Shown here in pieces: positions 2,196 to 42,037 of a DNA stretch of 64,000 bases. A program made the translations under genes and the position numbers. The DNA comes from a candidate division KSB1 bacterium. GTDB taxonomy: Bacteria > Zhuqueibacterota > Zhuqueibacteria > Residuimicrobiales > Krinioviventaceae. The notes under the pieces are model-generated. The model had not been told where the DNA came from. It searched no databases and worked only from the letters and a program-made list of their open reading frames with translations. The DNA is taken from contig JAXHMJ010000005.1 in NCBI GenBank assembly GCA_034521575.1, positions 1,178,001-1,242,000 on the forward strand. The letters run 5' to 3'. Numbering within the stretch: position 1 is the stretch's first letter; every line of letters starts with the position of its first letter.

Positions 2196-4196
2196 TTATT
2201 TCAGATACATCATTCGCCCCGTCTGCTTGACATCTCCGGCCCGGAATTGATAGATATAAAGTCCGGAAGACATTGGAACTCCCTGTCCATTCGTCGCGTC
2301 CCATTCGATATGCTGTCGACCGGCGTTTTGCATTCCGTCAACCAACGTGCGAATCAACCGACCGTGTATGTCATAGACCTGCAGAGATACAACTGTGGCA
2401 TCCGGCAGGTCATATTCAATCGTGGTGCTGGGATTGAACGGATTCGGATAATTGCCGTACACCCGGAAGCTGCGGCTGGCATTCAGCTCTTCTATTCCTG
2501 TAGATAAAGCCTCGGCTGCAAGCGGTCCATGGTCGGTCCCAGCGCCGTTCAAGCCTACATCACGGATCATATAATAATAGGTTCGTCCCGGTTCTACACG
2601 GCGGTCTGTGAATTCATAATATTTGACCGTGCCCTGAACACGGGTGGCCTGCGTGATCAATGTATGGCTCACCATTTCAAACGGACCCTGCTGAGAAAGA
2701 CTGCGCAGCACAGAATAGCCCGCATGGTCAATCTCCTGTTCTGCCGTCCAGCTGATATGAATTCCATCCTCATCAGCCTTTGCATTGAGTTGAGAAAGCG
2801 CGACAGCGACGGGTGTATAACTGTTTGTATCCCAATAGTAATCTTCTACCTCACCGGTAGTGGCAACACCCGTTGCAGAGGCGCCGCCGTCGCCGGAATT
2901 ATTGGTAAAGCGAAAGCGGGAATAGGTATCATTGACCAGTGTCGGCCATTGAATGGTCAGATTATACGTGCCAGCTGCGGATAAATAGGTTTCAGAAATC
3001 GTGCCGGTTGTCACTGTAGCCGGACCGGTCGAAGAATTCAAGGTAACCGCATCCAGAGTACCATCCCCGTCAAAATCGATGAATGCGGACAGGTAACCGG
3101 GAGCGCCGGCCTTAACCGTCAGTACAGCTGTACTATTGTCAAAATCGATCGAGGACAGAACAATACCATCCTCGTCATTGATTGAAGACATATTATCCCC
3201 TCCGGCCACCACATCCGGTTGACCCTCGGTTTCCGAATCCGGACCGGTGCCCAGATAGGCGCCGTTGGCTATGATATAATGCTGAGCCCCGTTGCTGGCG
3301 ACCCGTGTTCCGTAAGTATCCGGAAGATCTCCAAAATCAGATAAAATCGTCTCGTCTCCGGGCGGAAAGTCATCATTTTCATCTTCATCCCCTGTATCGG
3401 GATCAATATAGTCGGTTTTCATGGGAGAGTGATGTGACGAACCGGAAAACACATAGATGGGATTGGGCCCGAAACTGCTCAAATCCACGGACCACTCATA
3501 AACCATGGACCACTCCCATTCATAATTGGGATCATAGGTGATTTGCCCGCTCGCCGGATATCCGGTCATTTGATTCACATTTTCATTGCTGTCCCATGCG
3601 GATTTCCAGTTACCCACACCCGTTCCATAAACTTCCAGATCAAACAATTGTGTACCTGAATTGTAGCGTTGGGCGTAATTGTTCAGGTTGCAGGTAAAAG
3701 AGCTTGCTGAAGTATATCCCGGAGGGGCTGTGCCCAAACCATTTCCTGTTGTATTATCGGAAACCCAACCTGTATTAATACCGGGCGAGGGATTGTATGC
3801 ATACCCTTGCTGCCAATCATAAGAAGTGGAACCTATCGTCAAAGTAAAACCTGCGAATTCAGAATTAGTCAGCGTATTGACGTCATGAGACTTTTTCCAA
3901 TCGGCACTTTTCATATACGGATCCCGATCTCTTCCGCCGCCGCTTAAAGGACTAAACACACAATCATTCACACTCCGATGAACAACCAGGGCGACATAAA
4001 GGGTATTCTCGTGCACGGTATAATACAATCCGCTTCCATATTCAGAGGTTGAATACAGAGTGTAAATGGCATCATCTCCATCTCCGTAAAACAAACCATT
4101 GACAGTTGGCTGGGCATATAATTGCAAAGAAGAAAGTAACAGCACAAACAAAAGACTCCATTTTGTGCCGGTTTTTAACTTTACACTATTTTTCAT
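2196..4196 (-). CDS. secreted GEVED-domain protein with T9SS C-terminal sorting domain (paralogue A)
   Basis: 666 aa, exported and probably cell-surface or extracellular; function unknown. Order: signal peptide (KWSLLFVLLLSSLQLYAQ); an N-terminal domain beginning PTVNGLFYGDGD that is shared with the 847-aa paralogue at 4506-7049; a DFGDLPDTYGT/DEDGI segment with an acidic calcium-like loop DFDGDGTLD; a GEVEDYYW motif typical of GEVED domains; an FN3-like domain (ISWTAEQEIDHAGYSVLR); and a C-terminal module with NYPNPFNPSTTIEYDLP, ending FRAGDVKQTGRMMYLK, the type A T9SS/FlgD-like sorting domain. The ribosome-binding site before the ATG is weak. A sigma-54-like element lies 63 bp upstream and a 35-bp palindrome about 200 bp upstream. 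The long plus-strand frames over this gene are antisense shadows. Confidence 0.88.
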   Translation of the reverse strand: MKNSVKLKTGTKWSLLFVLLLSSLQLYAQPTVNGLFYGDGDDAIYTLYSTSEYGSGLYYTVHENTLYVALVVHRSVNDCVFSPLSGGGRDRDPYMKSADWKKSHDVNTLTNSEFAGFTLTIGSTSYDWQQGYAYNPSPGINTGWVSDNTTGNGLGTAPPGYTSASSFTCNLNNYAQRYNSGTQLFDLEVYGTGVGNWKSAWDSNENVNQMTGYPASGQITYDPNYEWEWSMVYEWSVDLSSFGPNPIYVFSGSSHHSPMKTDYIDPDTGDEDENDDFPPGDETILSDFGDLPDTYGTRVASNGAQHYIIANGAYLGTGPDSETEGQPDVVAGGDNMSSINDEDGIVLSSIDFDNSTAVLTVKAGAPGYLSAFIDFDGDGTLDAVTLNSSTGPATVTTGTISETYLSAAGTYNLTIQWPTLVNDTYSRFRFTNNSGDGGASATGVATTGEVEDYYWDTNSYTPVAVALSQLNAKADEDGIHISWTAEQEIDHAGYSVLRSLSQQGPFEMVSHTLITQATRVQGTVKYYEFTDRRVEPGRTYYYMIRDVGLNGAGTDHGPLAAEALSTGIEELNASRSFRVYGNYPNPFNPSTTIEYDLPDATVVSLQVYDIHGRLIRTLVDGMQNAGRQHIEWDATNGQGVPMSSGLYIYQFRAGDVKQTGRMMYLK

Positions 4197-4258: not shown

Positions 4259-4273
4259 TCAAATATCATGCCG
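4259..4273 (-). promoter_or_regulatory. sigma-54-like -24/-12 promoter of T9SS paralogue A
   Basis: On the minus strand this reads CGGCATGATATTTGA. GG and the -12 G are spaced as in the sigma-54 consensus TGGCAY-N5-TTGC, but -12 is GA rather than GC. The same element precedes paralogues B and C. It lies 63 bp before the ATG. The function is inferred. Confidence 0.5.
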
Positions 4274-4391
4274 CTTTTTTTAAATATAATATCTATTTTC
4301 ATTTCCTGCTATTGTTTTTATTTAACTTAAACACATATATTGCATCAGGTGTCCATTCAACTTTCATTTGTTAATAATCTTAACATATAAT

Positions 4392-4426
4392 CGGGTAATT
4401 TTGTACCATATGGGGAAATTTACCCG
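4392..4426. promoter_or_regulatory. 35-bp imperfect palindrome upstream of paralogue A (candidate activator site)
   Basis: Arms CGGGTAA and TTACCCG lie at the ends of a 35-bp element with an inner GGGGAAAT block. The element at 10928-10962 has the same length and the same inner blocks (GGGTAATTT...GGGGAAAT). It is centred about 160 bp upstream of the expected start from the sigma-54-like promoter, a normal distance for an enhancer-type site. The 309-bp gap 4197-4505 otherwise holds the promoter at 4259-4273, the terminator at 4450-4478 and AT-rich DNA. Confidence 0.45.
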
Positions 4427-4449
4427 ATTTGGGTTCAGGAAATTTCCAT

Positions 4450-4478
4450 AAAAAAAGCCCGGACACGATCCGGGCTTT
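4450..4478 (-). terminator. intrinsic terminator of T9SS paralogue B
   Basis: Inverted repeat AGCCCGGA/TCCGGGCT (4456-4476), followed on the minus strand by TTTTTT. It lies 28 bp past the stop of the upstream minus-strand gene. Confidence 0.85.
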
Positions 4479-4505
4479 CATTGAAATGAGATTGAATCCA
4501 GGCTG

Positions 4506-7049
4506 TTATTTCATATAAATCATCGATCCGTTTTGGGTCACATCGCCGGCCCGAAAGCGATAAAAGTATGTACCGGAAGAAACAGACGCTCCGGCATTGT
4601 TTGTCGCATCCCACTCTACCCGGTAACGCCCGGAGCCCTGCGATTGCGAGACCAGCGTCGTTATCAGACGGGCGTTGATATCGTAAATCTCGAGATGTAC
4701 AAAAGAAGCTTCCGGCAGACGGTATTCAATCACTGTGCTCGGATTAAAGGGATTGGGATAATTATCAGAAATCCAGTATTGATCCACTGCGATTTTTTGT
4801 TCAATACCGGTCGTGGTCACCTTCACCGGACCAAAGGGCTGAGAGCCGCCGCTCAAATCGACCGCATTCAGTCTGTAATAATAGGTTTTATCGGATCGGA
4901 CTTGGCTATCAGTATAGGCATAGGATTTCAGCGCACCCTGTTTAGAGTCCGGCTCGGTGATTAATCCGGAAAATAAAGCCTTAAAAGGACCGGTTTTCGA
5001 TTCACTGCGCGAGACGGTGTATCCGGCATGATCCACTTCGTTCTCGGACGTCCAGGTTAAAATGACGGCATTGTTGTCCAGTTGAGCATCAAAAGACGCC
5101 AGGCTCACCGCCACCGGATCGGTATCGCCCAGCTGCGCGTAATAGTCCTCCACCTCGCCGAACCCGTCGCCGTAGCCGGACGGGGAGAGCGGATCGCTGC
5201 TGTAGCCGGTATCCAGACGAAAGCGCACATAGGTCAAGTCCGCAGAGGCCACATCCGGTACGGTAAAAGTATACTCGCGGGATTCGGCCATCGTCTGATT
5301 GCTTTTGGCCAGACTCGAGATCGCAGATTTTGCCATGCTGCCTTTGTACACATCATTATCAATAATCAAATCCGGGCTGCCGTTATCAAATCCGTCGCCG
5401 TCAAAATCAAACCATGCAGCAAGTCTGGCGTTCACACCGGCCGCAACCGTCACGTCGACCTGTACTTTATACCGGGCGCCGCGGACAAAGTACAGCGGTT
5501 CACTCATTTCGCTCCAGGTCGCCCCGGCATCTTCAGTGGAATAAAACGTCACCCCGTCTTCATCATCAATGTCGCTGTTGTCATCATCATCTGCAGTCAG
5601 CGTTCCGGTATAAACCCCTTCTTTGTCCACAGACGAACCCAAATAGGCATAGGAGGCATCCACCGCTTCGCCGGCCGGGAGCCAACCCTCGGCCGCATCT
5701 CCATAATCTGCATATTCGAGCGACAGTACCTGCACCCGGTAATCCTCCACCTCACCGTCCGATGCGCCGCCTGTGGGGGAGAGACCCGTTTCACTGCTGA
5801 ACCGGAAGCGCGCATAGGACACGCCCTGCGTCACATTGGCGGGAACCGAATAATTCAGATTGTTGGCGCCGCCGCTCAAGGCCTGATCCGTAAAAATTTG
5901 TTCGCCGGTATCATCAAAATCGCCGTCGCCATTGAAATCCATCCAGGCATTGAGATAACCGGACAGATTGGCGGTTGCGGTCAGGGTTGCGGTTTCACCG
6001 GCGGCAATTTTTGATGTAAATTCAATACCGTCTTCATCGTTTTCCGTATTGTCGTTATCATCACCCGATGCCTCGGCGCCGGGGAGTCCGTCCATATCCG
6101 CATCCACAAAAGCGCCCAGCGTGGGATTTGATGCAGATGTTAATTCATGGTACGGGCCGTTATCAGCTTTAACTGTTGGATAGGGGGACGGTAAATCACC
6201 AAAATCCTTGGGCGTAATGGTGGTCAGGCTGACTGTGCCTGATATGGGAATGGGCACATTCTCGTTGTCATCTTTTGAGGGCGAATTATGAGCGCTGTTG
6301 ACGCGAAACTCCATGGTTCCGGTAATCCCGTCCAGCGGGATCATCATTTCATAAACCAGAGCCCACTCCCATTGATTGACGCTGTCCCAAAAGGGATAAC
6401 CACCGGAAAGGCTATTGGGATCGTTGGGGTCATGTGGAGATTTCCAGGGGGCCCGTCTGCCGCCGCCGTCAAAATATTCGGGATGATTGGTTACCCACGA
6501 GTCGTTGTTCAGATTCCATTGCAGAGAACTTTTGGAAATAGTTCCTTCTGGTGGTAATAGACCATTTTTTGAAGACCCATCATCTCCCCAAGCATCCGAC
6601 AGCCAGTCAGCTTCCATAGGATCACCATCTCCGTCCGCGTCATAAACATAGTCCTGATGCCAGGACAGTGTTTCGTTCACACCATTTTTGGTACGTGTAA
6701 ACGAAAACTCGAGATGATCGGAGCCAACCAGTTCATAACCGGTCCGTCCCGCTCCCCGGCTCCAACCGGCTGAGCTGATATAATCCGTTTCCTTAAACTT
6801 GTCAAACACATTGTCATTAACAGAAGGATCGACCACCACCGCCATATAAAGAGAATTATTTTCCAGATAGTAGTATAAAGTGCCCCGGCCCTCTTCATTT
6901 TCCGCCAGCACTTCATATTCGCCAGAATCCCCGTCGCCGTAAAACAAACCGTTAACCGTGGGAGTGGCATTCAAAAATGCAAATGTACTAAAAAAAAGTC
7001 CGCTGCATAAAAACCGTTTGACCAGTGTGTTCATACTATCTATTAACAT
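4506..7049 (-). CDS. secreted GEVED-domain protein with T9SS sorting domain (paralogue B)
   Basis: 847 aa from the ATG at 7049, chosen because GGAG lies 7 bp upstream and the signal peptide (LVKRFLCSGLFFSTFAFLNA) follows directly; the frame stays open further upstream. After the signal comes the same PTVNGLFYGDGD domain as in paralogue A, then two successive DFGDLP/DYGDAAEG-type segments. Each of these has Asp-rich loops (DFNGDGDFDDTGEQ, DFDGDGFDNG) and a GEVEDY motif. An FN3-like domain (LTWTSENEVDHAGYTVSR) and a C-terminal NYPNPFNPSTVIEYRLP...FRAGDVTQNGSMIYMK sorting module follow. Compared with A it carries one additional GEVED unit. Probably an adhesive or structural cargo; the exact role is unknown. 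It has its own promoter elements upstream. Confidence 0.86.
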   Translation of the reverse strand: MLIDSMNTLVKRFLCSGLFFSTFAFLNATPTVNGLFYGDGDSGEYEVLAENEEGRGTLYYYLENNSLYMAVVVDPSVNDNVFDKFKETDYISSAGWSRGAGRTGYELVGSDHLEFSFTRTKNGVNETLSWHQDYVYDADGDGDPMEADWLSDAWGDDGSSKNGLLPPEGTISKSSLQWNLNNDSWVTNHPEYFDGGGRRAPWKSPHDPNDPNSLSGGYPFWDSVNQWEWALVYEMMIPLDGITGTMEFRVNSAHNSPSKDDNENVPIPISGTVSLTTITPKDFGDLPSPYPTVKADNGPYHELTSASNPTLGAFVDADMDGLPGAEASGDDNDNTENDEDGIEFTSKIAAGETATLTATANLSGYLNAWMDFNGDGDFDDTGEQIFTDQALSGGANNLNYSVPANVTQGVSYARFRFSSETGLSPTGGASDGEVEDYRVQVLSLEYADYGDAAEGWLPAGEAVDASYAYLGSSVDKEGVYTGTLTADDDDNSDIDDEDGVTFYSTEDAGATWSEMSEPLYFVRGARYKVQVDVTVAAGVNARLAAWFDFDGDGFDNGSPDLIIDNDVYKGSMAKSAISSLAKSNQTMAESREYTFTVPDVASADLTYVRFRLDTGYSSDPLSPSGYGDGFGEVEDYYAQLGDTDPVAVSLASFDAQLDNNAVILTWTSENEVDHAGYTVSRSESKTGPFKALFSGLITEPDSKQGALKSYAYTDSQVRSDKTYYYRLNAVDLSGGSQPFGPVKVTTTGIEQKIAVDQYWISDNYPNPFNPSTVIEYRLPEASFVHLEIYDINARLITTLVSQSQGSGRYRVEWDATNNAGASVSSGTYFYRFRAGDVTQNGSMIYMK

Positions 7050-7134
7050 TTTTATACTCCACGGGCAAAAATAGCCCGATATTGATTGTAATAACCGATT
7101 AATAAAACATACTTTACATCTATATACAATAGAT

Positions 7135-7149
7135 TCAAATATTATGCCA
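7135..7149 (-). promoter_or_regulatory. sigma-54-like -24/-12 promoter of T9SS paralogue B
   Basis: The minus strand reads TGGCATAATATTTGA. It is a perfect -24 half (TGGCAT), then five bases, then TTGA where the consensus is TTGC. It lies 86 bp before the ATG at 7049 and aligns with the elements at 4259-4273 and 10812-10826, including flanking T/A-rich sequence. Confidence 0.5.
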
Positions 7150-7272
7150 TTTCTTTTAAAACCAGGCCTGTATCCGACGATAAAAAAACGCCTTATCTTA
7201 TTGTTTATATACATCTTTTAATTTTACGGAAATTATATTTACATCTCGTTTGCAAAAGATATTAACTTAAAG

Positions 7273-7307
7273 CGGGGTGTTTTTACCCAGTGGTTATATT
7301 TTACCCA
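7273..7307. promoter_or_regulatory. 35-bp element upstream of paralogue B (candidate activator site)
   Basis: Same 35-bp length as the elements upstream of paralogues A and C, beginning cGGGG and ending TTTACCCa. It agrees with the A element at about 20 of 35 positions, so it is the most diverged of the three. It is centred about 165 bp upstream of the expected transcription start. The rest of the gap 7215-7491 shows no gene I can support. Confidence 0.35.
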
Positions 7308-7491
7308 ATTATCTCTGAAACTGTGAATTGCTTATAACTGAAACAGTGTCAATAATACATCCGGCGCTGCTGCCACCCAAAATCGAATCCGGCGGCCAAA
7401 CAGGCCTTTTTATTGGCAGGCAAACGTGAATTGACGGTCTCTGCAGGTTTCATTCAATATAGATGAAAATCTCTCAGAAACAAAGTGACTA

Positions 7492-8010
7492 TCAGCGTTT
7501 TGCCTGACTCGCAAAGATCACCCGTTCCTGCACAGATTTGCGTTGTTTCGGTTTCGGCGCATCCGCGGCATACCCCAACGGCGTCAATGCGATGGGCTCC
7601 CAGTTCTCTTGAAGCAGAAAAACCTCCCTGACTGCTTCCGGATCAAAAGCGGCGATCCAGCAGGTTCCCAGTCCCTGCTCGGTTGCGGCCAGAATAAGAT
7701 GATCCATAGCAATCACCGTGTCCACATCCGCGTAATTGCGTCCGTCCATTCGCGACCACGCCTCATCCGGCGCTGCGCAGGCGCAGATAACCAGCGGCGC
7801 CTGCAGCAGCCAGTCGCGTTTGTACACCCTGCGTAATTCGTTTTCATTGCCGCGTGTGGAGAGAACAATGAATCGAAAGGGTTGCTGGTTCACAGCGGTC
7901 GGCGCCATTAAAGCCGCTCGTAAAACCGCCTGCAGCTTTTCCTCTTGCACATCTTTATCGGAATAAGCGCGCACACTGTAGCGGGTTTGAATCAGATTTT
8001 CAAAATGCAT
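7492..8010 (-). CDS. nitroreductase family protein (copy 1)
   Basis: 172 aa, a small FMN-dependent NAD(P)H oxidoreductase of the nitroreductase superfamily. Visible hallmarks are the N-terminal RYSVRAYSDKDV (Arg/Ser FMN-phosphate contacts), MAPTAVNQQPFRFIVL, and the central GLGTCWIAAFDPEAV segment. Substrate unknown. It is transcribed divergently from the DoxX gene with 91 bp between starts. It is nearly identical to 10977-11480 except for a few substitutions and a different C-terminus (ERVIFASQAKR here, ERVIFK there). The pair plus flank was duplicated. Confidence 0.9.
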   Translation of the reverse strand: MHFENLIQTRYSVRAYSDKDVQEEKLQAVLRAALMAPTAVNQQPFRFIVLSTRGNENELRRVYKRDWLLQAPLVICACAAPDEAWSRMDGRNYADVDTVIAMDHLILAATEQGLGTCWIAAFDPEAVREVFLLQENWEPIALTPLGYAADAPKPKQRKSVQERVIFASQAKR

Positions 8011-8020
8011 ATTCGCTCCT

Positions 8021-8076
8021 TTGACAAGTTGGAATGATCATCTTTTATTCAGTATTAAAGTAATGAGTTATGTCAA
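8021..8076. promoter_or_regulatory. divergent promoter region, nitroreductase/DoxX copy 1
   Basis: TTGACA occurs on the plus strand at 8021-8026 and, facing the other way, on the minus strand at 8076-8071, giving one -35-like box for each gene. The -10 boxes are poor (TTTATT on plus, TACTGA on minus). The arrangement is repeated at 11491-11546. Promoter function is inferred. Confidence 0.35.
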
Positions 8077-8101
8077 GAGAATCAAAATTAAGAGGGGGAT
8101 T

Positions 8102-8599
8102 ATGAAAAAATTATTCAGCAGTCAATTTCTAAACGCAGACCTCGCCATACTCATTTTGAGATTATGGGTCGGCGCCATGTTCATCTGGCACGGATACAGC
8201 AAACTCTTTGGAGGCATGGAACAATTTTCAGGGTGGCTGGGACAACTCGGTGTGCCCCTGCCGGTACTGTTTGGATATCTTGCAGCATTGTCCGAGTTTG
8301 TCGGCGGCATTTTGCTCATCCTCGGACTGTTTTACCGTATCGCAGCGTTTTTCATTTTATTTGTTATGATTGTCGCGCTGACGACGGCGCATGCCGGAGA
8401 TCCATTAAGCAAAACTGAAAAGCCTCTGACATTTGCTGTCACGATGATATCATTTATTGTTTTCGGTGCGGGGAAATACAGTCTGGATGCTGTGTGGTTT
8501 AAAAAGCCAGAGCAACACGTAGCATTAAATCGGCAAATAAAAGTAAACTCTGATTTTTATTCGCCGATTTGTCCTGTAAGACTGTTAACCAGTCTTTAA
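8102..8599 (+). CDS. DoxX family membrane protein (copy 1)
   Basis: 165 aa from the ATG at 8102, preceded by AGAGGGGGA. A four-helix DoxX-like inner-membrane protein: LILRLWVGAMFIWHGYSKLFGG, then helices around LPVLFGYLAALSEFVGGILLILGLF, IAAFFILFVMIVALTTAHAGD and FAVTMISFIVFGAGKYSLD. DoxX proteins are often linked to redox or thiol metabolism; the partner here is the divergent nitroreductase. Its last ~32 residues do not match copy 2. They read through a hairpin homologous to the one after copy 2, so the tail is probably not native. Confidence 0.88.
   Translation: MKKLFSSQFLNADLAILILRLWVGAMFIWHGYSKLFGGMEQFSGWLGQLGVPLPVLFGYLAALSEFVGGILLILGLFYRIAAFFILFVMIVALTTAHAGDPLSKTEKPLTFAVTMISFIVFGAGKYSLDAVWFKKPEQHVALNRQIKVNSDFYSPICPVRLLTSL
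8527..8570 (+). repeat. hairpin inside the DoxX copy 1 tail (homologue of the copy 2 hairpin)
   Basis: Inverted repeat AAATCGGCAAATAA ... TTATTCGCCGATTT, nearly complementary. The matching hairpin at 12005-12050 lies after the stop of DoxX copy 2. Here it falls inside the open reading frame because the stop codon was lost. Confidence 0.6.
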
Positions 8600-8728
8600 T
8601 ATTTCTATCATTTTACCCCATATCAGTTCACAGGATTCGGCGCCGATATCTGTTCGGCTTTACGAGCTTTTCCATTTTCATCCGTCAGATGTCTGATGCG
8701 CACCAGCCTTCCCTTTAACCGCAAATGT
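8596..8728 (-). pseudogene. decayed remnant of the 12086-12688 gene (3' part)
   Basis: Read on the minus strand, the segment gives LKGRLVRI and then, in another frame, SDG*KWKSS*SRTDIGAESCELIW. This aligns with LKGKLVRIGASDGWSWKSSLSRTDTGAGSCEIIW at the end of the intact gene 12086-12688. It contains two in-frame stops and a frame change. It shows that the duplication that copied the nitroreductase/DoxX pair also carried the end of the third gene. It ends 5 bp before the stop of T9SS paralogue C. Confidence 0.82.
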
Positions 8729-8733
8729 CTGTA

Positions 8734-10578
8734 TTATTTCAAATAGACCATACGCCCTATTTGATGAAAATCCGCGGCCCGAAATCTGTACAAATAAAGT
8801 CCAGAAGGAACAGAGTCACCATTTTCCGACATTGCATCCCAGGTCACACTATAATGTCCCGGGGATTGAATAGCGTTCACCAGTGTTTTTATATGCTGAC
8901 CCTTGCTGTTGTATATTTCCAATACAACCTTTTCCTGAACCGGGACATCATATTCAATGACCGTCAGTGGATTAAAGGGATTGGGATAATTACCATATAA
9001 GCGAAAATCACGAATCTCCATATTTCCCTCAATAGCCGTTTCCACTGATACATTGACCGCAATCGGTCCATGTTCTGTCGTCGAGCCGTCCACACTCACA
9101 TCCTGAAGTATGTAATAATGGAGACCGGGTTTTATACCGGCATCTGTAAACTTGTAGTATTTTGTGTTGGATTGTACGAATTTCGGTCGGCTAATCAGTC
9201 CGCTGATGGATGAAAACGGTTCATCCGGGGCAGAACCGCGGAGCAGCTCATATCCGACATGATTGATTTCTGATTCCGCGCTCCATTCCAGGAGCACATT
9301 GTCTTGAAATGCTTCAGCCGTAAAAGCACTCAGCGTTACGGCAACAGGCGGAGTATCTGACAATTCCGCGGTGTAGTCCTGAACCTCACCGGCGTACTCG
9401 CCGTATCCCGTTGGTGTGAGATTCTCCGGGGATTGCCCGGGAACACCCAAATCAAGTCGATAACGAATGTACGTCGTACCGCCGCCGGTATTCGCGCCTG
9501 TCGGCACCGTAAATTGGTGTGTTGTGGTCACTGTAGCAGCGCTACCTGCATTATTTTCCAGCAGGACATTATCAATGATGCGTTCGGTACTGTTGTCCTC
9601 AAAAGAATCATTGTTACCAAAGTCGAACCATGCGGCCAGGCGGGCGTTCTCATTGGCCGGCAAATAAGATTCAACCGTCACTCTGTAGGTTTCATCCACA
9701 ACAAACGTACTGCTGGTATGTGAAACCCATTCATTGCTGTCTATTACGTTATCCTCATCCGCATCCACCCAGCGTTCGTAACTGATACCGTCATCATAAT
9801 TATCACCATCGGCAGCTAAAGAGTATTCCTGAGCATCCTCGACCTCGACATCGTCTCCCAGTTTGACAATACTGCCGCTGGGCCGATAATGTCCGGCCAG
9901 TCCATAATCGGAAGTCGCATCGCCAAAATCAATGTCGCGGGTGTAAAAGATTCCGGGGATCGCGCCGCTGCCGTCTATATTGATTTCCATGCGTTTGACA
10001 TTGGCGACATCCACGTCCTGTTCGTAATAGACATTTTCTCCGGTGACCGTGATCGATATCGAACTGCCGATTTGATTATTGTCTTCATCATAAAAATAAA
10101 CGTCGGCCTCCACATCATCCAAGGTATATATTTTATCCGCCAACTTTACAGGAGAGCTGAATGTAAAAATAAACCGGGCATTGTCGCCGGAAGGTGCGTT
10201 CCAGTCGTTGGGGACCGACTGGTTGTTATCAGTTGACAGGATAATCACCATACCCCTTGCTACATCGTTTTTTCCCGGATCAGTAGCACCTGCTGCACCA
10301 ACTCCAGGTCCCCCAAACGCTTCATTTGGAGTCCCCAGGTCGGTATCACCACCGGTCGGATTTTGACTGTCAAACGCCATGACCCGGTGACTGGAATGGC
10401 TTTCGCTGATCGTAACCCCCCAAGCTTCATATTCATCATCGATAAATTGACCTGCAACAATGTCAGTTCCCTGTGCATCGGTATCAAAGTTAATTTCAAA
10501 TGCGGTTTCAGACGATACTTTTATACATGCAATAATGAGCAATAAAAACAAGACGCTCAACTTTTTTACAAACTTCAT
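8734..10578 (-). CDS. secreted protein with T9SS sorting domain (paralogue C)
   Basis: 614 aa; ATG at 10578 with a strong AGGAGG 6 bp upstream. Signal peptide (LSVLFLLLIIACIKVSS), then an N-terminal domain unlike paralogues A and B (EINFDTDAQGTDIVAGQF ...), containing Asp/Glu-rich strands. Next come DFGDATSDYGLAGHYRPSG, a GEVQDYTAEL motif of the GEVED type with a DFGNNDSFEDN loop, an FN3-like domain (LEWSAESEINHVGYELLR), and the YGNYPNPFNPLTVIEY...FRAADFHQIGRMVYLK sorting module. The C-terminal half is paralogous to A and B while the N-terminal module has been exchanged. It is inserted between the two nitroreductase/DoxX copies. A sigma-54-like promoter lies 234 bp upstream, giving an unusually long leader. 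Confidence 0.86.
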   Translation of the reverse strand: MKFVKKLSVLFLLLIIACIKVSSETAFEINFDTDAQGTDIVAGQFIDDEYEAWGVTISESHSSHRVMAFDSQNPTGGDTDLGTPNEAFGGPGVGAAGATDPGKNDVARGMVIILSTDNNQSVPNDWNAPSGDNARFIFTFSSPVKLADKIYTLDDVEADVYFYDEDNNQIGSSISITVTGENVYYEQDVDVANVKRMEINIDGSGAIPGIFYTRDIDFGDATSDYGLAGHYRPSGSIVKLGDDVEVEDAQEYSLAADGDNYDDGISYERWVDADEDNVIDSNEWVSHTSSTFVVDETYRVTVESYLPANENARLAAWFDFGNNDSFEDNSTERIIDNVLLENNAGSAATVTTTHQFTVPTGANTGGGTTYIRYRLDLGVPGQSPENLTPTGYGEYAGEVQDYTAELSDTPPVAVTLSAFTAEAFQDNVLLEWSAESEINHVGYELLRGSAPDEPFSSISGLISRPKFVQSNTKYYKFTDAGIKPGLHYYILQDVSVDGSTTEHGPIAVNVSVETAIEGNMEIRDFRLYGNYPNPFNPLTVIEYDVPVQEKVVLEIYNSKGQHIKTLVNAIQSPGHYSVTWDAMSENGDSVPSGLYLYRFRAADFHQIGRMVYLK

Positions 10579-10811
10579 TGTGCACCTCCTGCACGGGCAA
10601 GTTCGTGACCTACCATTCCAACCACGACCTACTGTTGAATGGTCAATTTATTGAAAAGTTGGTGCCAAACAGAATCAAATGTTTTGCTTGATTTTTACAA
10701 CCGGTGTTCTGGTTTAAAAATCGATTTTCTTGAAACACCTCTATTCTACACTGGCAGTGTGTTTCTGCTCAAAATGTACTTTTTTAATCTATTAACACCC
10801 AAAGTTATTTG

Positions 10812-10826
10812 GCAAATTTAATGCCA
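10812..10826 (-). promoter_or_regulatory. sigma-54-like -24/-12 promoter of T9SS paralogue C
   Basis: The minus strand reads TGGCATTAAATTTGC, a full match to TGGCAY-N5-TTGC with the correct 10-bp spacing between GG and GC. It is the best of the three related elements. It is 234 bp from the start codon. The leader 10579-10811 shows no ORF or structure I can name. Confidence 0.6.
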
Positions 10827-10927: not shown

Positions 10928-10962
10928 TGGGTAATTTCTCCTCAACAGGGGAAATATCCCCA
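10928..10962. promoter_or_regulatory. 35-bp imperfect palindrome upstream of paralogue C (candidate activator site)
   Basis: tGGGTAATTT at one end and GGGGAAAT...CCCCa at the other, in the same register and length as the element at 4392-4426. It lies 102 bp upstream of the sigma-54-like promoter, about 145 bp from the expected start. Confidence 0.45.
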
Positions 10963-10976
10963 AAACCGGAGTCCCA

Positions 10977-11480
10977 TTATTTAAAGATCACCCGTTCCCG
11001 CACAGATTTGCGTTGTTTCGGTTTCGGCGCATCCGCGGCATACCCCAACGGCGTCAATGCGATGGGCTCCCAGCCCTCTTGAAGCAGAAAAACCTCCCTG
11101 ACTGCTTCCGGATCAAAAGCGGCGATCCAGCAGGTTCCCAGACCCTGCCCGGTTGCGGCCAGAATAAGATGATCCATAGCAATCACCGTGTCCACATCCG
11201 CGTAATTGCGTCCGTCCATTCGCGACCACGCCTCATCCGGCGCCGCGCAGGCGCAGATAACCAGCGGCGCCTGCAGCAGCCAGTCGCGTTTGTACACCCT
11301 GCGTAATTCGTTTTCATTGCCGCGTGTGGAGAGGACAATGAATCGAAAGGGTTGCTGGTTCACAGCGGTCGGCGCCATTAAAGCCGCTCGTAAAATCGCC
11401 TGCAGCTTTTCCGCTTGCACGTCTTTATCGGAATAAGCACGCACACTGTAGCGGGTTTGAATCAGATTTTCAAAATGCAT
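10977..11480 (-). CDS. nitroreductase family protein (copy 2)
   Basis: 167 aa, near-identical to 7492-8010. The visible differences are VQAEKLQAIL for VQEEKLQAVL, ATGQGL for ATEQGL, LLQEGWEP for LLQENWEP, and a short C-terminus ending ERVIFK. FMN-binding hallmarks are unchanged (RYSVRAYS, APTAVNQQPFRF). It is divergent from DoxX copy 2. Probably the parental locus, since it keeps the intact flanking gene at 12086-12688. Confidence 0.9.
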   Translation of the reverse strand: MHFENLIQTRYSVRAYSDKDVQAEKLQAILRAALMAPTAVNQQPFRFIVLSTRGNENELRRVYKRDWLLQAPLVICACAAPDEAWSRMDGRNYADVDTVIAMDHLILAATGQGLGTCWIAAFDPEAVREVFLLQEGWEPIALTPLGYAADAPKPKQRKSVRERVIFK

Positions 11481-11490
11481 ATTCGCTCCT

Positions 11491-11546
11491 TTGACAAGTT
11501 GGAATGATCATCTTGTATTCGGTGTTAAAGTAATGAATGTTGTCAA
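11491..11546. promoter_or_regulatory. divergent promoter region, nitroreductase/DoxX copy 2
   Basis: TTGACA at 11491-11496 on plus and at 11546-11541 on minus, as in the copy at 8021-8076. The spacer sequence has drifted more than the coding regions while the two -35-like boxes are kept. Confidence 0.35.
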
Positions 11547-11571
11547 GAATATCAAAATTAAGAGGGAGATT

Positions 11572-11991
11572 ATGAAAAAATTATTCAGCAGTCAATTTCT
11601 AAACGCGGACCTCGCCATACTCATTTTGAGATTATGGGTCGGCGCCATGTTCATCTGGCACGGATACAGCAAACTCTTTGGAGGCATGGAACAATTTTCA
11701 GGGTGGCTGGGACAACTCGGTGCGCCCCTGCCGGTACTGTTTGGATATCTTGCAGCATTGTCCGAGTTTGTCGGCGGCATTTTGCTCATCCTCGGACTGT
11801 TTTACCGTATCGCAGCGTTTTTCATTTTATTTGTTATGATTGTCGCGCTGACGACGGCGCATGCCGGAGATCCATTAAGCAAGACTGAAAAGCCTCTGAC
11901 ATTTGCTGTCACGATGATATCATTTATTCTTTTCGGTGCGGGAAAATACAGTCTGGATGCTGTGTGGTTCACGAACAAACGCAAAGAATAA
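11572..11991 (+). CDS. DoxX family membrane protein (copy 2)
   Basis: 139 aa from the ATG at 11572 (AGAGGGAGA just upstream). Four predicted transmembrane helices with the same sequence as copy 1 apart from isolated substitutions (GAPLPV for GVPLPV, SFILFG for SFIVFG). It ends ...DAVWFTNKRKE, a normal DoxX length, directly before a hairpin. Inner membrane; a redox-linked role is inferred from the family and from the divergent nitroreductase. Confidence 0.9.
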   Translation: MKKLFSSQFLNADLAILILRLWVGAMFIWHGYSKLFGGMEQFSGWLGQLGAPLPVLFGYLAALSEFVGGILLILGLFYRIAAFFILFVMIVALTTAHAGDPLSKTEKPLTFAVTMISFILFGAGKYSLDAVWFTNKRKE

Positions 11992-39035: not shown

Positions 39036-40688
39036 TTAATCGCTGCGTAAAGGAGAGTTCCAGTAAAAACGCGTCAATCCTTTAGGGGTTCCGAACCAGA
39101 TATAATTGCCTTTTAGGTAAAGCGAATAGACCCGATTATCCGCAAGCCCGTCCATGCGCGTATAATGTCTCCACCGGTTGGCGAATCGATTGTATTTGTA
39201 AACACCGTTGTCCGTCGCCACCCACACAGATTGCGCGGCAACCAGAATCCTGTGTATACCGGCAGGCACGGAATGCAGCCGTTCTGGAATCTGTTTCAAC
39301 ACATGGTGTTTTGTATCCAGGCAGCCGACTCCCTCGTCTGTCGCGAACCAGAGTTCAGAATCAAAGGCAGAAACGGCAAATACGCGGGTGTTGATAAAAT
39401 CAATATCTCCGATAAAAAATCCGGCTTGTTTCTGTTTATGGTAAAGGTACAAACCGTATTCCGTTCCCAGCCACAGAGAATCGCCATGACTGTCGACATC
39501 ATAAACCAGCAATTCCTTGTACCGCGACGGCAGAATTTGTTTAATATCCGCCGAATCGGGTCGAATAGAAGACAGGTTCAGACTGGATGCCCCTCCTTCT
39601 GTTGCAATCCAGAGGAAATCAGAATCCAATACCACATCATTGACAATATCATCGGACAGGTTATTCACCCGACGCAAGGTGCGCCAGTACTCCTGTTCGC
39701 GATCATAAAAGGCCACCCCGCCAAGTGTGCCGAAAAAAACAAACCGTTCATTCAAGTCAATAGAGGTGATTTCCGGGTTGGAAAACCCCGAAATCAAATG
39801 TGGCTCATAATAAACCGGGGGCTTTTGCACGCCGAACCAGCGGGTTATTCCGGTATAGTCATCATGATCCTGCATGCCACCCACCCAAAAACTGCTCTCA
39901 TCTTTGCCAATATCGTCTACCGTATCATCCCACAATCCAAACGGCAGCAGAGTTAGTCGGTTGGTATTCAGATCACCGCGGCCTGCTCCCAGACCCCACG
40001 TGCCTATCCAGAGATTCCCCCACTTGTCACGCACCCAGGTGGTAACCGGCCAGGTTCTGAGTTCATGATCACGGATTTCCTGTCCGGCATCATTGAACGT
40101 ATACGCGCTGAATTCGCTGTCCATAAAAAAATGCGGCAATCCGGAACGTTGGTCACGGCGGCCGAACCATTTAATATGGTCATTCAGAGCCGGCTGGGTT
40201 TGCTGAAAGTTGAAAAACTGGTTATGCGACTTGAACCAGTTGTCCCGAGAGTCCACCACAATCACATTCACACCGTCAAAGCCGATGGATTGCACCGGTG
40301 CCTGAATCATACCCATTTCATCGAAAAACTCATTATACCAGATCTCGGCTGCCGGTTCGTAACGGCTGATGCTTTTTTCAGTTACCGCCCAGACAAATCC
40401 GGTATTGGCATCTTCGGCGACCAGATAGACTTCATTTGAGGCCAGACCATTACTGACGGTCCAGGGATAGTTCCATTGATTGGCAAAATAATTATAGCGG
40501 GTAATGCCGCCGGACGACGCAAAATACACAAACGTATTCCCCAGAGAGACATAACGGACAAACCGTGTTGCGGCATAAGTGATCCAGTCTCCCTGATTGT
40601 AGGCACGGTTGGTTTCATAGATTTTCTGTTGAGCAATGGCCGGAAGGCTCAGTACAAGCAACAACAGCAGCAGAGTTTTATATTGCAT
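39036..40688 (-). CDS. exported beta-propeller protein (two-component-regulator-propeller-like)
   Basis: 550 aa, signal peptide MQYKTLLLLLLVLSLPAIAQ. Repeated short motifs such as SNGLASNEVYLVAEDANTGFVWAVTE, WLGTEYGLYLYHKQ, LWFATDEGVGCLD, VWVATDNGVYKYNR and GLADNRVYSLYLKGNYIWFGTPKGLTRFY, as in Reg_prop propeller blades. There is no kinase or T9SS domain. Its ATG overlaps the stop of the sigma-54 activator by one base, so the two are co-translated. Possibly a periplasmic sensor component; this is inference. Confidence 0.75.
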   Translation of the reverse strand: MQYKTLLLLLLVLSLPAIAQQKIYETNRAYNQGDWITYAATRFVRYVSLGNTFVYFASSGGITRYNYFANQWNYPWTVSNGLASNEVYLVAEDANTGFVWAVTEKSISRYEPAAEIWYNEFFDEMGMIQAPVQSIGFDGVNVIVVDSRDNWFKSHNQFFNFQQTQPALNDHIKWFGRRDQRSGLPHFFMDSEFSAYTFNDAGQEIRDHELRTWPVTTWVRDKWGNLWIGTWGLGAGRGDLNTNRLTLLPFGLWDDTVDDIGKDESSFWVGGMQDHDDYTGITRWFGVQKPPVYYEPHLISGFSNPEITSIDLNERFVFFGTLGGVAFYDREQEYWRTLRRVNNLSDDIVNDVVLDSDFLWIATEGGASSLNLSSIRPDSADIKQILPSRYKELLVYDVDSHGDSLWLGTEYGLYLYHKQKQAGFFIGDIDFINTRVFAVSAFDSELWFATDEGVGCLDTKHHVLKQIPERLHSVPAGIHRILVAAQSVWVATDNGVYKYNRFANRWRHYTRMDGLADNRVYSLYLKGNYIWFGTPKGLTRFYWNSPLRSD

Positions 40689-42037
40689 TATTTTAGACCA
40701 TATTTTTTGAGTTTTTTATGCAAATTCGCGCGATCCGTTTGAAGAATTTCCGCCATCCGGCTCACATTGCCCTGACATTCGGCATACCCGTTTCTCAAAA
40801 TTGATTCTTCGAAAGCATTCATTTGATCGCGCAGCGACCCTGATTCACGTTTTGCATCTGTCTGCTCAGCCCCGGGCTCAGCCCGTTCACCCAACAGGCG
40901 GACGGCATCCGAGGCAGTAATTTTATCGGCGGTCAACATGATGCTCAAGCGCTCAACAACGTTGCGCAGTTCGCGAACATTCCCCGGCCATCTGTAGCGC
41001 ATCAACGCATTCAGGGCATCATCCTCAAGTCGCTTGGGACGCTTGCCGTTTTTCACAGCATAAACATCGAGAAAATGCCGGGTCAATGCCGGAAGATCCT
41101 CAATCCGGTCGCGCAAAGCAGGGACGGTAACCGGCACTACATTCAATCGAAAATACAGGTCCTGACGAAAATGACCGTTGTTGATTTCAGTCTCCAGATT
41201 TTTGTTGGTCGCAGACAGCACCCGCACATTGAACGAATGCGGGACAGTGCTTCCCACCGGCGTAAATTCATTTTCCTGCAGCACACGCAGTAATTTTGCC
41301 TGGGTTTCCGGCGCCATATCTCCGATCTCGTCGAGAAGCAGAGTGCCATTTTCCGCTTCCTGAATCAGACCGGTCTTTTTTTTATGAGCTCCGGTAAACG
41401 CACCTTTTTCATACCCAAAGAGCTCACTTTCAATCAGTTCACGCGGCAGAGCCGCACAATTTAGCTGTAAGAACCGTCCGGGTCGGCCGCTTTTTTTGTG
41501 GATTTCCCGCGCCACCAATTCTTTTCCGGTGCCGTTTTCGCCGTAAATCAAAACCCGGCCGTCCGTCGGGGCGATCTGATCGATCATCGCCCGCAGAGAC
41601 TGCACAGGGGGTGACTCGCCGATCATCTGGTAATCCAGATCAACGCGGTTCTTCAGAGAATCCAGCTCGGCATCTTTGCGCTGCTGGTCTTCAATTTTCC
41701 GAATCTCAAGCAGAATCTTTTCGGGATTCACCGGTTTTTCAAGAAAATCATAGGCGCCTTCCCTGGTGGCATTGACCGCCGTCGAGATATCAGCCTGCCC
41801 GGATATCATAACCACTTTGGTACGCGGGCATTTGTTCCGCAGCTGTTTCAACGCCTGCAGACCGTCCATTTGCGGCATGACCACATCGCAAAACACCAGG
41901 TCAACATCCTGTTCAGCAGCCTCGTTTACCACACATCTGCCGTCAGAACAGGTGGTCACCGCATGGCCTTCTTTCATCAACAGCCAGCGCAGCGATTCAA
42001 CAATATTCGCATCATCATCAGCAACAATGATCTTCAT
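40688..42037 (-). CDS. sigma-54-dependent response regulator (NtrC family)
   Basis: 449 aa cytoplasmic activator. Receiver domain 1-120 (IIVADDDANIVESLRWLL, DLVFCDVVMPQMDG with the phospho-acceptor Asp, MISGQ, FLEKPVNPEKIL). AAA+ domain ~140-375 with Walker A GENGTGKELVAREIH, the GAFTGAHKK loop that contacts sigma-54, LLLDEIGDM and RWPGNVRELRNVVERL. C-terminal Fis-type helix-turn-helix (CQGNVSRMAEILQTDRANLHKKLKKYG). No histidine kinase is adjacent. It is a candidate, not a proven, regulator of the sigma-54-like promoters at 4259, 7135 and 10812. Confidence 0.95.
   Translation of the reverse strand: MKIIVADDDANIVESLRWLLMKEGHAVTTCSDGRCVVNEAAEQDVDLVFCDVVMPQMDGLQALKQLRNKCPRTKVVMISGQADISTAVNATREGAYDFLEKPVNPEKILLEIRKIEDQQRKDAELDSLKNRVDLDYQMIGESPPVQSLRAMIDQIAPTDGRVLIYGENGTGKELVAREIHKKSGRPGRFLQLNCAALPRELIESELFGYEKGAFTGAHKKKTGLIQEAENGTLLLDEIGDMAPETQAKLLRVLQENEFTPVGSTVPHSFNVRVLSATNKNLETEINNGHFRQDLYFRLNVVPVTVPALRDRIEDLPALTRHFLDVYAVKNGKRPKRLEDDALNALMRYRWPGNVRELRNVVERLSIMLTADKITASDAVRLLGERAEPGAEQTDAKRESGSLRDQMNAFEESILRNGYAECQGNVSRMAEILQTDRANLHKKLKKYGLK

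Follow-up and report, generated by a model that had tools for sequence, protein, structure and literature searches.

Among the closest described systems, the proteobacterial PEP-CTERM genes have an activator motif and a sigma-54 motif in common and are associated with the PrsK-PrsR pair (Haft et al. 2006, PMC1569441), and in Aquincola RpoN1 is needed for the transcription of pepA (PMC9850573). In F. psychrophilum, the gliding-motility operon remFG-sprCDBF has a sigma-54 (SM4) promoter that was confirmed by promoter mutagenesis, and dnaK and grpE are among the sigma-54 targets (PMC9723704). Control of the bacterial exterior by sigma-54 is an established theme (Francke et al. 2011, PMC3162934).

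The DNA analysed here, referred to as the window, is a stretch of 64,000 nucleotides (G000:C5:1178001-1242000) from a genome of 5.26 Mb. Three T9SS-sorted GEVED proteins encoded in it likely belong to a small sigma-54 regulon that is switched on by one NtrC-family activator. The arrangement resembles the PEP-CTERM/PrsK-PrsR system in having C-terminally sorted surface proteins whose genes are preceded by long upstream regions, in which an activator motif lies ahead of a -24/-12 element, and in having an NtrC-family response regulator adjoining a histidine kinase. It differs in that sorting is by T9SS and not by exosortase, in the sequence of the upstream element and its gap to the promoter (89-131 bp here, 32-92 nt between motifs there), in the number of genes (four cargos and two other genes here, 99/167 there), and in having an extra stand-alone HTH protein. 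As in F. psychrophilum, where SprB is a T9SS-secreted surface adhesin under sigma-54, surface cargo and the chaperone genes dnaK and grpE have sigma-54 sites, which are perfect ahead of the chaperone genes here; single-gene units with a common enhancer are found in place of the operon, and a candidate activator can be proposed, whereas no specific activator or enhancer is named in the accessible part of that report (PMC9723704). Among the sigma-54 sites predicted in this genome, many stand before exported proteins, in agreement with Francke et al., who set out a general comparative principle; T9SS GEVED cargos are not treated in the available text (PMC3162934). The sigma-54 scheme is known for other surface proteins and undescribed for the GEVED T9SS family; the enhancer is new and the stand-alone HTH gene is unusual.

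Cargo genes, promoter sites and the shared upstream element

The three cargo genes lie on the minus strand and encode proteins of 666 aa (cargo 1, 2196..4196), 842 aa (cargo 2, 4506..7034) and 614 aa (cargo 3, 8734..10578). Each product has a signal peptide, as judged by eye, and a C-terminal type-A sorting domain (TIGR04183, 33.8, 27.5 and 24.2 bits, respectively; cut-off 23 bits), and the T9SS machinery is encoded in the genome (SprA_N, 1.1e-39). The GEVED domain (PF20009) was found in cargo 1 (1.8e-10), twice in cargo 2 (2e-29) and in cargo 3 (6.4e-9). The length of cargo 2 was counted from the signal-peptide ATG, since the mechanical ORF extends to 7214, across the promoter; some cargo starts are uncertain because several loci of the genome look frameshifted. 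The cargos are paralogues, 33-41% identical where alignable. GEVED is a stalk domain of fibrillar adhesins (PMC10952558). A divergent nitroreductase-DoxX pair is duplicated beside these genes (7492-8599 and 10977-11991, 97.5% identical over 987 bp); set against the far more diverged adjacent cargos, this suggests a recent duplication or gene conversion.

The minus-strand 15-mers reported in the earlier note were found exactly where it had placed them: CGGCATGATATTTGA at 4259..4273, 62 bp ahead of the cargo 1 ATG at 4196; TGGCATAATATTTGA at 7135..7149, 100 bp ahead of the cargo 2 ATG at 7034; and TGGCATTAAATTTGC at 10812..10826, 233 bp ahead of the cargo 3 ATG, a distance that is long for a leader and counts against the sigma-54 regulon. 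Sigma-54-dependent promoters have a -24 GG and a -12 GC at fixed spacing, with the binding site of the activator (EBP) about 80-200 bp upstream and the transcription start about 12 nt downstream. All three elements had been described as fitting TGGCAY-N5-TTGC with exact spacing, the third perfectly; the spacing and the perfect third site were borne out, whereas the first site has two departures (CGG..., TTGA) and the second has one (TTGA). At sites 1 and 2 the -24 GG, the -12 G and the correct spacing are retained, with A replacing C at -12. The surrounding DNA is otherwise diverged, as the note had stated, with pairwise identities of 11-13/15 bases within the promoters and 18-26/60 in the 60 bases on each side, and when upstream regions 1 and 2 were compared by blastn, the best match was a 26-bp block around the promoter. 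Judged by their letters only, the first two sites would be weak, because the TTGA form shows no spacer preference and most of its genome matches are intragenic; this too counts against the regulon. The best evidence that the sites go beyond chance is a common upstream element, absent from the earlier note.

This element (UAS) is an ungapped, 33-bp paired palindrome, GGGTAAATTTCCCC...AAATTACCC, that precedes every one of the three sites at a distance of 102-124 bp, also on the minus strand: GGGTAAATTTCCCCATATGGTACAAAATTACCC at 4393..4425 (119 bp from the cargo 1 promoter), GGGTAAAATATAACCACTGGGTAAAAACACCCC at 7274..7306 (124 bp, cargo 2) and GGGGATATTTCCCCTGTTGAGGAGAAATTACCC at 10929..10961 (102 bp, cargo 3). 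The two palindromes within each copy are imperfect. A paired palindrome upstream of the sites is the layout of a sigma-54 activator's enhancer, and the UAS is a putative binding site that at all three promoters lies within the expected distance of about 80-200 bp; we consider it decisive for the sigma-54 case.

When the 200 bp ahead of the three promoters were searched for motifs de novo, the best set of 33-mers was exactly the three UASs. Its relative entropy was 48.05, in comparison with 41.8 +/- 1.0 (maximum 44.6) for shuffled sequences (z=6.1, reached by 0/100 shuffles), and over five regions the search gave z=9.7, again reached by no shuffle. Relative entropy was used in place of ungapped identity counts, which were not significant for the 33-mer (13/200 shuffles) because they ignore base composition and the DNA is AT-rich. 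A degenerate UAS pattern allowing 3 mismatches matched four places in the genome, the three UASs of the window and C5:911770, and a relaxed pattern allowing 1 mismatch added C5:462543 and C3:413572, for a total of six; the reversed controls gave 0 in both cases. All six places have a same-strand sigma-54-like site 89-131 bp downstream. The restriction to six places is partly circular, because the patterns were built from sites that they then find. The C5:462543 UAS came from a matrix scan and the sigma-54-like site there from a separate, independent scan; the C3 UAS scored 9.0, the 99th percentile of shuffles being 4.4.

Sigma-54 sites in the genome and extent of the regulon

In a 0.69-Mb sample, partly picked around sigma-54 sites and activators, TGGCAY-N5-TTGC was over-represented at the 5-bp spacer (9 matches vs 1-3 at other spacer lengths), whereas the TTGA variant was not (5 vs 2-5). 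The latter was rejected as a common promoter class, as its 30 exact genome matches are mostly intragenic and the sample showed no spacer preference; its comparison with the reversed-pattern control (30 vs 2) resembles enrichment but probably reflects composition. In this genome the exact TTGC form is biologically genuine. About two thirds of the 37 exact sigma-54 sites found genome-wide are intergenic. They precede textbook sigma-54 targets such as gltB and an ammonium transporter, as well as grpE, dnaK, regulator genes and many genes for exported proteins. The perfect sites ahead of the grpE and dnaK homologues are at G000:C5:2450565 and 2453832 (L343 and L344). The rpoN gene, whose presence the earlier note had left to be checked, was present and intact (467 aa, Sigma54_DBD 2.2e-60, RpoN box ARRTVAKYRE), and about 17 sigma-54 activator loci were detected. 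Two further perfect sigma-54 sites (L013 and L014, at G000:C2:1161.4 and 1163.5 kb) have GTAACgaaatGTTAC-type palindromes upstream and are adjoined by an activator gene, C2:1160344, that seems frameshifted; together they probably represent a second enhancer-activator pair.

Outside the window the same layout was found before three genes. A fourth GEVED T9SS cargo (C5:462764-464479) is preceded by the UAS at C5:462543 and a sigma-54-like site; an exported 182-aa protein (C3:413776) by a GGTACC-rich version of the UAS at C3:413572 and the perfect sigma-54 site TGGCATAGATGTTGC (L017); and a stand-alone 75-aa Fis/NtrC-type HTH_8 protein (C5:911985-912209, L201:9986-10210) by the UAS at C5:911770 and the perfect promoter TGGCATATTGCTTGC. 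A neighbour at C3:418895 (L293) resembles the C3:413776 protein in its N-terminal region and carries a site of the TTGA type.

The sigma-54 motif had been expected to be commoner before T9SS cargo genes than elsewhere, and no such excess was found: sites of at least 11 bits preceded 5/68 cargos with a usable intergenic region, among the matches listed, and 9/133 control genes, the control stretches lying near activators and being thus biased towards sigma-54 sites. The cargo set was drawn from the 150 scored matches listed, and cargo 3 is absent from it. A general T9SS-cargo regulon was rejected on this basis, the upstream regions of at least 94 cargos with plausible starts having shown no enrichment over control genes. 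The UAS, on the other hand, was detected before four of the about nine GEVED-domain genes of the genome and before no other T9SS cargo, among the matches listed; this was compared in a post hoc Fisher test (4/9 GEVED genes vs 0 of an assumed 191 others). A close paralogue of cargos 1 and 2 at C2:1051.9 kb has neither the UAS nor the sigma-54 element. Since, among the T9SS cargos listed, the UAS is confined to these four GEVED genes and there is no general excess, the coherent unit is the GEVED subset and not all surface cargo. The proposal of a sigma-54 regulon of surface cargo is supported for that subset, for which rpoN, the activators, the perfect sites before known targets and the common UAS speak, and is not supported for T9SS cargo generally. 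What is well supported is a small regulon composed of GEVED (adhesin-stalk) cargos.

In 59 related genomes, all from other genera, matches to the UAS were near chance level and no convincing pair of UAS and sigma-54 site was found beyond two weak candidates (L236 and L237), which counts against the regulon; a cargo 1 homologue in G004 has no elements upstream. Two Acidobacteriota loci (L308 and L310) encode large proteins with the N-terminal domain of cargo 1, that of L310 resembling a C25 peptidase by eye, and are preceded by strong sigma-54-like sites (16.0 and 17.2 bits), with no matching UAS seen in these regions. The cargo 1 N-terminal domain may be sigma-54-controlled elsewhere too.

Candidate activator and competing explanations

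The prime candidate for the regulator of the UAS promoters is C2:1073811-1075166, which has receiver, sigma-54 activation and HTH_8 domains and whose gene adjoins that of a 1078-aa hybrid histidine kinase (PAS/HisKA/Hpt). Of all such domains in the genome, its C-terminal DNA-binding domain resembles the 75-aa HTH protein most, by a wide margin (56% identity, E 2e-16; next activator 4e-7), and the recognition-helix sequence RKTLR is common to these two proteins and found in no other activator of the genome, for which reasons it is likely to be the regulator; its likely identity is thus drawn from its likeness to the small protein. With TIGR02915 (PrsR) it scored 374.6 bits, below the cut-off of 502.6, so that by this measure it does not qualify as PrsR.

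We infer the binding, looping, signal and feedback of the following scheme from DNA elements, genes and domains read in the sequence. A two-component signal would lead to phosphorylation of the response-regulator activator, likely C2:1073811-1075166, whose dimers would occupy the two palindromes of the UAS. The bound activator would loop to the RNA polymerase-sigma-54 at -24/-12 and open the promoter, and the GEVED adhesin-like cargos would be exported via T9SS to the surface. The stand-alone HTH protein, made from the same promoter type, would probably compete for the palindromes and damp the response. This protein looks like an activator's DNA-binding domain alone, lacking any activation domain. 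That it might be a dedicated feedback competitor on the same enhancers, an activator-derived 'anti-enhancer' through which the adhesin regulon shuts itself off, is a speculative proposal that we regard as rather doubtful.

Two other explanations both appear very improbable. The sites could belong to primary-sigma promoters like those of Bacteroidota, which have a -7 box TAnnTTTG, and resemble sigma-54 elements by accident: site 3 includes TAAATTTG, which matches TAnnTTTG perfectly, a T9SS is a feature that the organism has in common with Bacteroidota, and F. psychrophilum uses this box (PMC9723704). However, sites 1 and 2 have no TA at the required place, there is no -33 TTG at the right spacing, and among the matches listed the box was as frequent in sense as in antisense before 94 cargos (10 vs 10); the conserved TGGCAT half and the upstream palindromes would also be left unexplained. 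A recent duplication of a gene block, of which the elements would be leftovers free of selection, would agree with the paralogy of the three cargos and with the adjoining nitroreductase-DoxX block, itself a recent duplicate. Yet promoter and UAS persist while their flanks and spacers have diverged to background, both precede the unrelated stand-alone HTH gene and unlinked genes (C5:462.7 kb and C3:413.7 kb), and the C2:1051.9 kb paralogue is devoid of them, which makes such an origin hardly credible.

An alternative that keeps the same sigma-54 regulon and assigns it to a different activator of the genome, the stand-alone HTH protein being a helper or an unrelated factor, is less likely than not by some distance, but deserves more weight than the previous two. 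The genome has about 17 activator loci, one of them within the window at 40688-42037, and pairing through HTH similarity is indirect. Against this, the HTH of the window activator is remote and gave no match to the 75-aa protein, and the RKTLR recognition helix is common only to the C2 activator and this co-regulated protein.

The likely reading, a small GEVED regulon that a single NtrC-family activator turns on, connects T9SS-exported adhesin-like proteins, in a bacterium that is not one of the usual models, with sigma-54, a defined enhancer and a candidate two-component activator, so that signal-specific control of T9SS cargo becomes directly testable. The parallel with PEP-CTERM/PrsR suggests convergence on sigma-54 control among sorted surface proteins that take different routes of secretion.
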